Part shown: positions 41,835 through 44,469 of the stretch, in pieces
Layout: every line of letters begins with the position of its first letter
How positions within the stretch are numbered: the first letter of the stretch is position 1
Assembly (NCBI GenBank): GCA_028285405.1
Contig: JANQPH010000055.1
Span: 1 to 56,651 of the forward strand
From: Thermoleophilia bacterium
Lineage (GTDB): Bacteria; Actinomycetota; Thermoleophilia; Miltoncostaeales; Miltoncostaeaceae
Reading direction: 5' to 3'
DNA length: 56,651 nt
The notes under the pieces: model-generated
Databases searched by the model: none
The model's input: only the letters and a program-made list of their open reading frames with translations
Told to the model about the DNA's origin: nothing
Translations under genes and position numbers: made by a program

Positions 41835-42140
41835 TTGCCTGACTACGCAGTGATCGCCCTCGGGGGCAAGCAATATCGCGTCCGCGAAGGCGAGCGGCTG
41901 CTCGTCGATCGCCTGCCGGAGGCCGAGGGAGACTCGATCGCGCCGCCCACGCTCGCCGTCGGCGACCAGAAGGGCATCACGGACGGCGGCAAGGTGACGG
42001 CAACCGTCGAGGAGCACGTGCTCGGCGAGAAGATCCGGGTCCGGACCTACAAGGCCAAGAGCAACCAGAGCCGGCAGCTCGGTCATCGCTCGCGGCTCTC
42101 CCGGATCGTCATCGACAAGATCGCGGTGGGGAAGAAGTAG
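41835..42140 (+). CDS. rplU: 50S ribosomal protein L21
   Basis: 101 residues from TTG 41835, with AGGAG (41825-41829) 5 nt upstream. PDYAVIALGGKQYRVREGERLLVDRL is the universal L21 N-terminus, and the C-terminal KAKSNQSRQLGHRSRLSRIVIDKI contains the 23S rRNA-binding basic loop. First gene of rplU-rpmA-obg-proB-proA-nadD-rsfS. Confidence 0.96.
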   Translation: MPDYAVIALGGKQYRVREGERLLVDRLPEAEGDSIAPPTLAVGDQKGITDGGKVTATVEEHVLGEKIRVRTYKAKSNQSRQLGHRSRLSRIVIDKIAVGKK

Positions 42141-42407
42141 ATGGCTCACAAGAAGGGTGGCGGCAGCAGCCGCAACGGTCGCGACTCGAACGCGCAGCGC
42201 CTCGGCGTCAAGGTGTTCGACGGCCAGCTCGTGCCGGCCGGATCGATCATCGTGCGCCAGCGCGGAACCAGGTTCCATCCAGCTGACGGCACCGGCCTCG
42301 GTCGAGACCACACGATCTACGCAACCGTCACCGGGCGGGTGAAGTTCACCAACGGCCGCAAGGGCCGCAGGGTCTTCGTGCATCCCGAGGAGACCCCCGC
42401 CGCCTGA
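42141..42407 (+). CDS. rpmA: 50S ribosomal protein L27
   Basis: 88 residues from ATG 42141, directly after the rplU stop. [24 protein letters not shown] is the L27 tail that reaches the peptidyl transferase centre, followed by the beta-barrel [26 protein letters not shown]. No cleaved N-terminal extension of the firmicute type is present. Confidence 0.97.
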
Positions 42408-42436: not shown

Positions 42437-43363
42437 ATGACCTTCGTCGACCACGCTCGCATCCACGTCGAGGGCGGGGCGGGCGGCAACGGCGCCGTCT
42501 CGTTTCGGCGGGAGGCCCACGTCCCGAAAGGCGGCCCCGACGGCGGCAACGGCGGGCGGGGTGGCCGTGTCCTCATGGTCGCCGACGAGAAGGTGCCGGA
42601 CCTCGGTCGCTTCCGGTACGACATCCACCACAAGGCCGAGCGCGGTGAGCACGGCGGCGGGCGTAACCGTCACGGCGCCGCCGGGGCGGATCTGCGGCTG
42701 GCGGTGCCCCTCGGGACCCGCGTGGAGCGTGACGGGAACCTGATCGCCTCGCTCGACGAGGATGGCACCGAGATCCAGGTGGCCCAGGGCGGCGACGGGG
42801 GCGTCGGCAACCGGGCCTTCCGCTCCGCGACCCACCAGGCGCCCCGCAAGGCCGTGCCGGGCACGGGAGGCGAGGCGACCTGGCTGACGCTCGATCTGCG
42901 GCTGGCGATCGACGTGGCGATCGTCGGGCTCCCGAACTCCGGAAAGAGCGCGGTCCTGAACGCGCTCACCGGCGCGCGGGCGCCGGTCGCGGCCTACCCG
43001 CGCACCACCCAGGAGCCGGCCTTCGGCGCGCTCCGGGACGAGGCGGACCGGATCCTGCTGATCGCCGACCTCCCCGGATTGGCCGAGGACGGATCGCCGC
43101 GTCGTGACGGGCACCTGGAGCAGCTTGAGCGGGCCAGGGTGCTCGTCCACTGCGCCGCCACCGGTCCGGGCGCGATCCCGGTCGAGGACGCCCTCGCCCT
43201 CGGGCGGCCGGCGCTCCTGGAGCACGCTTCGGACACGGTGACCGAGATCACCGTCGCGACGGGGTCGGCGTCCGCCGGAGCTGCAGCCGTCGGGGTCGAT
43301 GCCGATACTGGCGAGGGAGTCGCCGATCTGCGGGCCCGGATCCTGGAGGCCCTCCGCCAGTGA
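42437..43363 (+). CDS. obg: Shortened Obg-family GTPase lacking G4 and the OCT domain
   Basis: 308 residues; actinobacterial Obg is usually above 420. The glycine-rich Obg fold is complete (GGNGGRGGRVLMVADEK, AAGADLRLAVPLGTRVERDG, AQGGDGGVGNRAF). The G domain has G1 GLPNSGKS, switch TTQEP and G3 ADLPGLAEDGS, but the region after LERARVLVHCA is collapsed and no NKxD (G4) is present. The end VGVDADTGEGVADLRARILEAL resembles G5. It may bind guanine nucleotide with altered specificity or not hydrolyse it. Obg normally assists late 50S assembly; the L21/L27 neighbours fit. ATG 42437 follows rpmA by 29 bp. Confidence 0.9.
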   Translation: MTFVDHARIHVEGGAGGNGAVSFRREAHVPKGGPDGGNGGRGGRVLMVADEKVPDLGRFRYDIHHKAERGEHGGGRNRHGAAGADLRLAVPLGTRVERDGNLIASLDEDGTEIQVAQGGDGGVGNRAFRSATHQAPRKAVPGTGGEATWLTLDLRLAIDVAIVGLPNSGKSAVLNALTGARAPVAAYPRTTQEPAFGALRDEADRILLIADLPGLAEDGSPRRDGHLEQLERARVLVHCAATGPGAIPVEDALALGRPALLEHASDTVTEITVATGSASAGAAAVGVDADTGEGVADLRARILEALRQ

Positions 43364-44469
43364 GCTCCAACGTCGTCATCGTGAAGATCGGCTCGTCGAC
43401 GATCGTCGGCGAGGACGGCCGCCTGCGCGAGGACGTGATTCGGGCGCGCGCCGCCGACGTGCTGGCGCTCCGCCAGGAGGGCCACCGGCCGGTCGTCGTC
43501 TCGAGCGGGGCCACCGCGAGCGGCCGCGGGCGGCTCGGGCTCGGGCAGCACCGGACCGCGCTCCCCGATCTGCAGGCGGCCTCGGCCGTCGGCCAGAGCG
43601 CGCTCATGGCCGAGTGGGATGCGGCGCTCGGGATCGACGGGGTCGTGGCCGCGCAGGTCCTCCTCACCTCGCACGACCTCGAGCGACGGGCGTCGTACCT
43701 GAACGCGCGCACCACGCTGCTGCGGCTGCTCGACCTCGGTGTCGTGCCGATCGTCAACGAGAACGACACGACCGCGACCGACGAGCTCACCTTCGGCGAC
43801 AACGACGTCCTCGCCGCTCACGTCGCGGTGCTGCTTCGGGCCAGGGCGCTGCTGTTGCTGACCGACCGCGAGGGGCTGCTCGCGCAGGGCGACGGGGCCC
43901 CGAGCCTGATCGACCAGGTTCCGGGCGACATCGAGCTCGACGCCCTGCCGCTCGCCGATCTCGGTGCGTCGCGGACCGGGCGCGGGGGCATGCTCAGCAA
44001 GCTGGCGGCGGCCGAGATGGCCCGCTCTGCCGGCATCACGTGCGTCGTCGCGTCTGCGCTCGAGGACGGCGTCGTCCAGGATGCACTCGCCGGCAGGCCC
44101 CGGGGAACCCGTCTGGCCCCGGCGCCGAGCGGCGAGAGCGGATTCAAGCTGTGGCTGCGCCACGCCAAGCCGAGCCGCGGAGCGGTTCGCGTCGACGACG
44201 GCGCCGCCACGGCGATGCGCCAGTCCGGTCGGTCGCTGCTTCCGGTCGGGGTCGTGGGCTCCGACGGCACCTTCGCCGCGGGCGACGCCGTCGACGTCCT
44301 CGACTCCTCGGGACGTGCCGTCGGCAAAGGCATCGCCAGCCTCTCGGCCGAGGAGGTCAGGGCCGTCGCGGGCCTCCGCAGCGAGCAGGTCAGGCGGCAG
44401 TTGCCGGATGCCTCGGGCGAGGTCATCCACCGCGACCGATTCGTCCTGGCACGGGACGACGTGGTGTAA
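43360..44469 (+). CDS. proB: Glutamate 5-kinase with PUA domain
   Basis: 369 residues from GTG 43360 (GTGA overlap with obg). It phosphorylates glutamate for proline synthesis. The amino-acid kinase fold shows VVIVKIGSSTIV, VVVSSGATASGRGRL, IVNENDTTATDELTFGDNDVLAAHVA and GRGGMLSKLAAAEMA. A C-terminal PUA domain spans about 280-365 (GAVRVDDGAATAMRQSGRSLLPVGVVG). proA follows after 7 bp. Confidence 0.95.
   Translation: MSSNVVIVKIGSSTIVGEDGRLREDVIRARAADVLALRQEGHRPVVVSSGATASGRGRLGLGQHRTALPDLQAASAVGQSALMAEWDAALGIDGVVAAQVLLTSHDLERRASYLNARTTLLRLLDLGVVPIVNENDTTATDELTFGDNDVLAAHVAVLLRARALLLLTDREGLLAQGDGAPSLIDQVPGDIELDALPLADLGASRTGRGGMLSKLAAAEMARSAGITCVVASALEDGVVQDALAGRPRGTRLAPAPSGESGFKLWLRHAKPSRGAVRVDDGAATAMRQSGRSLLPVGVVGSDGTFAAGDAVDVLDSSGRAVGKGIASLSAEEVRAVAGLRSEQVRRQLPDASGEVIHRDRFVLARDDVV

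Follow-up and report, generated by a model that had tools for sequence, protein, structure and literature searches.

Can a bacterium rely on an Obg that lacks the motifs with which a GTPase recognizes guanine? This question is raised by one gene in the window, by which we mean the whole stretch of 56,651 nucleotides that was analyzed. A preliminary description of the gene had reported a conserved Obg fold, G1, switch and G3, a collapsed NKxD region and no OCT domain, and had considered the loss of guanine-specificity elements surprising in what was apparently the rplU-rpmA-linked copy. The locus contains the following features, all on the + strand.

41835..42407, +, rplU (L21) and rpmA (L27), upstream of obg (ORFs)
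42437..43363, +, obg, encoding a minimal Obg without OCT (ORF, ATG start, 308 aa)
42446..42904, +, N-terminal Obg fold, residues 4-156 (PF01018, GTP1_OBG, E 1.4e-50, 171 bits against a cut-off of 27)
42926..42949, +, G1/P-loop GLPNSGKS, residues 164-171 (pattern GxPNxGK[ST], kept)
42995..43012, +, switch I YPRTTQ, residues 187-192, second Thr at 191 (alignment)
43067..43132, +, G3 DLPGL (211-215) and switch II (motif kept; switch II 3 residues shorter)
43259..43270, +, G4 position, TGSA (275-278) and not [NTS]KxD (alignment)
43295..43303, +, G5 position, VDA (287-289) and not SA-type (alignment)
43360..44469, +, proB (glutamate 5-kinase), downstream of and overlapping obg (ORF, GTG start)

The obg locus and its product

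The gene order at the locus is rplU-rpmA-obg-proB, with the TGA stop codon of obg overlapping the GTG start of proB; the names of these neighbors are presumptive assignments from their sequences. In a neighbor survey of the family loci L002-L032, rplU and rpmA were both present at 30 of 31 loci and proB at all 31. The one locus with neither rplU nor rpmA, L007, lies on a contig stretch that is short there. In a tree rooted on the rows from the class, a 100/100 branch separates the family rows from the class rows; the tree columns end at residue 245, hence G4 and G5 are excluded, and L033 carries a long-branch warning. The window Obg is orthologous to Obg by descent as well as by gene order.

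Based on Pfam and the motif alignment, the Obg fold, G1, switch and G3 are all present as first described, and the G domain with G1, switch I and G3 directly follows the Obg fold. MMR_HSR1 matches residues 159-241, corresponding only to profile positions 1-84 of 113. Four NCBIfam Obg models match the protein and end at residues 239-256, all below their cut-offs (TIGR02729, 260.8 against 280.25; NF008956, 264.9 against 300; NF008955, 258 against 406; NF008954, 215.6 against 377). The collapse of the NKxD region was likewise confirmed: with TGSA at G4 and VDA at G5 in a total of 308 aa, the Obg hallmarks G4 [NTS]KxD and G5 SA are absent from the motif alignment of the window Obg. No lysine follows K170 in the P-loop, which leaves none for an NKxD or TKxD further downstream. 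The switch-II motif GxGLG/GxGMG is also absent from the alignment of this protein, and only 22 residues extend from the start of G5 to the C terminus.

An AlphaFold2 model built from three sequences has a mean pLDDT of 55.5, with values below 50 at residues 1-91, 108-154 and 181-191; taken in blocks of ten residues, the part from 191 on scores 65-89. In the model the G domain takes a Ras-like form (beta1-alpha1-beta2-beta3-alpha2-beta4-alpha3-beta5-beta6-alpha5), beta5 being followed directly by beta6 without an intervening helix. Obg structures are the best Foldseek matches of the model; the VIA fold list is crowded by Rab/Rho-type GTPases in rows mostly spanning residues 157-308. By sequence, the best PDB matches are ObgE and Obg (family structures 5m04, 4csu, 1lnz and 1udx).

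A second full-length obg elsewhere in the genome had been proposed as a check. A PF01018 profile search of the genome of the window (2.41 Mb, 97.6% complete) found the domain once and no second obg, and the rplU-rpmA-linked copy is accordingly the sole Obg found, one from which the guanine-specificity motifs are indeed gone. Above the cut-off, PF01018 is present in 40 of 42 genomes of the family (f1). The exceptions, G002 (at 73% completeness) and G063 (at 90%), likewise had no L27 match in a search run without a positive control, which points to assemblies that lack the locus. In the search of 61 genomes, none is without a match at an E value of 0.001 or better, and that of G002 (E 2e-7, residues 155-215) resembles another GTPase. 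The only family genome with a second PF01018 match is G031, where a sub-threshold Obg-fold fragment of 20 bits lies in a frame of 101 aa close to the beginning of a contig (G031:C69:74-271).

Family-wide architecture and the OCT domain

The family alignment comprises 35 proteins, the window Obg and 34 relatives. Left out were G029, where the gene is split over two contigs, and G061, G062, G064 and G065; the duplicate loci L001, L032 and L063-L065 were dropped, L032 containing L006 (G013) entirely. The genus of the window, g1, has no further member among the 42 family genomes. The 35 proteins measure 298-317 aa, the one of 298 aa beginning at a contig edge. A misplaced assembly join, named in the preliminary description as a possible source of error, is ruled out because the 34 aligned relatives share the same architecture.

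By comparison with 66 Obgs from outside the family, switch II is 3 residues shorter in 35/35 family rows, and GxGLG/GxGMG, present in 66/66 outside rows, is missing from 34/35. Family members have 12-16 residues between G4 and G5, compared with 24-55 for 23 class and outgroup rows and 14-43 for 43 rows representing the rest of the phylum; a short segment is not unique to the family, given that 8 of these 43 have fewer than 24 residues and an intact G4. The pattern GxPNxGK[ST] and DxPG are each found in 35/35 family rows, and the second switch-I Thr in 34/35, with Ser in the remaining one. The last P-loop residue is Thr in 16/35 family rows, including all 14 rows of g9 (for example, L019), which end in GKT instead of GKS, and Ser in 66/66 rows outside.

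PF09269 (OCT) had no match anywhere in the genome of the window in a profile search. It also had no match in 19 other family genomes among the rows listed as without one; no f1 genome is among the listed PF09269-matching genomes, and 66 further matchless genomes stand outside that list. From G5 to the C terminus there are 21-28 residues in the 35 family proteins, too few for the 70-position OCT. Membership in Obg in general does not require an OCT domain. Among control genomes, OCT was detected in 6 of 14 and Obg in 10 of 14. The domain is thus absent as first described, but its absence alone is ordinary. Two other phylum families contain Obgs of 334-343 aa with an intact G4 and a normal switch II (L097, L098 and L099); these are too short for OCT, and OCT loss alone therefore occurs elsewhere. 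Another lineage with a reduced C terminus is the class family f3 (L037, L046, L049 and L054), with Obgs of 394-398 aa and an OCT match that is at most partial and below the cut-off.

Variation of G4 and G5 within the family

Across the 35 family rows, G4 reads TKxD in 14 and TRxD in 5, and Lys/Arg is lost in 16, 8 of which, the window Obg included, have also lost the Asp. Members of g9 carry TKCD in 14/14 rows together with the G5 Ser, g10 carries TRSD with TSA at G5, and g12 carries TRAD in 4/4 rows with the G5 Ser gone. A further 8 rows, from g2, g4, g6 and g11, have lost the Lys but retain the Asp (TFGD, TFSD, TSAD, THAD and CAAD). Both Lys/Arg and Asp are lost from the window Obg, g3, g5, g7 (2 rows), g8 (2 rows) and one row of g2. 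Among the Lys/Arg-lost rows of the family there is no conserved replacement motif, the sequences at this position being TGSA, TFSD, TFGD, TSAD, TSAQ, THAD, TGCP, TGCR, MGCP, TFTE, THVR and CAAD.

Outside the family, [NTS][KR]xD is present in 66/66 Obgs. The 23 class and outgroup sequences among them come from 22 of 24 class genomes and a Rubrivivax MAG. The other 43 belong to the rest of the phylum; of these, 4 were picked for short frames and 39, about one per family, came from the best 150 listed; drawn from the best-scoring matches, the phylum sample leans to well-conserved Obgs. Four full-length Obgs from other phylum families (L116, L120, L131 and L135) have SRAD at G4, with Arg replacing Lys, and L120 and L135 also have fewer than 20 residues between G4 and G5. 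As SRAD occurs in 4 of the 43 phylum Obgs and NRID in one class row, the change from Lys to Arg is ordinary variation.

Judged from these alignments, base recognition appears to erode stepwise across the family, with the window Obg at one end of the series. The alignment with relatives that the preliminary description had called for shows a loss common to many members, g9 retaining TKCD and the G5 Ser. Relatives with a more normal G4, which would have spoken against the first reading, do exist in this TKxD form, but within the same shortened protein. The surprise expressed there is justified in that the specificity motifs are lost; the loss is not a one-off, however, but one end of a graded series.

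On the best tree, in which the family backbone is unresolved, the fewest changes are three for the G4 Lys/Arg, four for the G4 Asp and two for the G5 Ser. A single clade of all Lys-less family members is compatible with the data (AU p 0.115), and loss of G4 with G5 amounts to 1 independent pair on the starred branches. All regions have dN/dS values under 1 in the 15 within-genus pairs computed, some of which share sequences. For the C-terminal part the ratio is 0.10-0.73 in 10 pairs that have lost G5 and 0.08-0.22 in 5 pairs of g9, values from overlapping pairs with partly saturated dS. Comparing residues 243-end, the pooled C/N ratio is 2.36 where G5 is lost and 1.80 otherwise; a weaker constraint on these residues in G5-lost members was not significant in 8 versus 7 disjoint pairs (Mann-Whitney p = 0.19).

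A genome-wide loss of NKxD is ruled out by other GTPases of the same genome. The motif is found in 5 of 8 other GTPase-type loci, in 6 domains that we take to be two Der-like and one each HflX-, Era-, IF2- and LepA-like, and the loss is thus not general in the genome; two weak PF01926 matches in the genome without a locus lie outside this set of 8. The NKxD pattern had no match in L083, L089 and L092 of the set. L083 is presumably YchF-like and L089 presumably RsgA-like, types expected to have a G domain that is non-canonical or permuted. Loss of the alarmone as a cause of G4 erosion is unsupported as well: RelA_SpoT occurs in the genome of the window and in 37 of the 42 genomes of the family, among them all 27 with completeness of 90% or more and contamination of 5% or less, so that (p)ppGpp regulation probably persists.

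Ribosome function and guanine recognition

According to PMC4028186, the N-terminal fold of E. coli ObgE inserts into the PTC, the ObgE NTD and G domain without the C terminus are enough for anti-association, and nucleotides, ppGpp most of all, increase ObgE-50S binding over the apo state. The same work reports that the double mutants K27+K31 and R136+R139 nearly abolished 50S binding. Of the six basic ObgE residues listed there as mutated, the window Obg keeps K31, R76 and R139 (its R137) and loses K27, R82 and R136, replaced by A27, A82 and Q134 (numbering by alignment); the three lost positions vary in other Obgs also. Within the family, R24, R25 and R137 are found in 35/35 rows and position 31 is Lys or Arg in 34/35, with one gap.

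The ObgE G4 substitutions N283I and D286Y are described in PMC6982127 as abolishing nucleotide binding. That text further states that ObgE* (K268I) alleles with N283I or D286Y are viable as sole copy and that ObgE* with the P-loop change G166V is not, for plasmid-expressed alleles in the K268I background. A lost G4 is less paradoxical in view of G4 alleles that work as sole copy without nucleotide binding. As in the window Obg, G4 is destroyed in both alleles and the P-loop is intact; the E. coli alleles are artificial point changes in K268I, whereas the loss in the window is natural, family-wide and accompanied by deletions. The resemblance of the family pattern to that of E. coli in PMC6982127, with G4 dispensable and the P-loop kept, suggests that the 50S role is kept and guanine control lost.

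We therefore regard it as fairly probable that the window Obg is a true, functional and only Obg that likely docks onto the 50S subunit and is predicted no longer to read guanine. Docking, by analogy with ObgE, together with lost guanine selectivity and a retained essential role, is the most likely reading. The G domain of this lineage would be reduced to its phosphate- and Mg2+-binding half (P-loop, switch-I Thr and DxPG), and the base-reading half (G4 and G5), part of switch II and OCT would have been lost. The protein may dock onto pre-50S particles through its N-terminal Obg fold, as ObgE does, and could perform the essential assembly and anti-association role without guanine-specific switching. 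Nucleotides might still be bound by their phosphates with weak discrimination among bases, or the protein might work mostly without them; against complete nucleotide independence stands the family-wide retention of the P-loop and Mg ligands. Also weighing against this reading are the stimulation of ObgE-50S binding by nucleotides and the replacement of the basic residues K27, R82 and R136.

The same retention, of P-loop and DxPG in every family row and of the switch-I Thr in all but one, would also fit a protein that is still a GTP/GDP switch and binds guanine weakly but genuinely by other contacts, or with the 50S subunit supplying the rest of the pocket. TRxD in g10 and g12, a replacement within ordinary variation, and the RelA_SpoT of all good-quality family genomes point the same way. 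The window Obg itself, however, has neither the G4 Lys/Arg nor the G4 Asp nor the G5 Ser, and a single change at N283 or D286 of ObgE abolishes nucleotide binding according to PMC6982127, and we consider a persisting switch unlikely. Alternatively, a kept phosphate site beside an altered base site could mark an NTPase that now favors ATP, XTP or any NTP in the manner of YchF/Ola1, for which PMC8779481 offers a precedent in NxxE replacing NKxD as the likely cause of altered specificity. A true change of specificity should conserve its new reader, but the G4 replacement varies among members, which makes this a distinctly doubtful account. An artefact, or a decaying pseudogene with a full-length obg elsewhere, is extremely improbable in view of the architecture common to the 34 aligned relatives, the single PF01018 match in the genome and dN/dS values that stay under 1 in all regions of the 15 within-genus pairs, none of which is from the genus of the window.

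Obg, Obg without OCT and the non-canonical G4 of YchF are already known. With the Obg/CgtA/ObgE family (TIGR02729, NF008956) the window Obg shares the Obg fold, P-loop, switch-I Thr, DxPG and gene setting, and it differs by lacking G4, G5, GxGLG and the C-terminal domain and by its shortened switch II and short segment between G4 and G5. PseudoGTPases are a general class in which nucleotide-binding motifs have been lost in a conserved fold. The window Obg is alike in this respect but, as far as its sequence tells, retains the P-loop and Mg ligands. YchF/Ola1 is, according to PMC8779481, an Obg-related P-loop protein with a non-canonical G4, as in the window Obg. In most species the G4 of YchF is NxxE, and the protein carries a TGS domain. 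The window family has no conserved replacement motif and possesses the N-terminal Obg fold, and both YchF hallmarks are absent from the window Obg, where G4 is TGSA and none of the 5 Pfam matches with an E value of 1 or less is a TGS family. Among the matches listed from the open-licence PMC literature, none describes an Obg with G4/G5 eroded across a family.

On a GTP requirement for the essential function of Obg the evidence points two ways: the E. coli mutants in PMC6982127 say no, yet G4 is kept in all 66 outside Obgs. A lineage whose sole Obg lacks the base-reading motifs is a natural counterpart of the E. coli G4 mutants, and its graded members are a panel for separating the structural 50S role of Obg from the sensing of GTP, GDP and ppGpp. 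A more tentative prediction, which we rate as somewhat short of likely, is that natural evolution in this family has produced an Obg whose essential work on the ribosome no longer depends on switching by guanine nucleotides. If true, the living stages TKxD, TRxD, TxxD and none would make the end-point of GTP dependence measurable.
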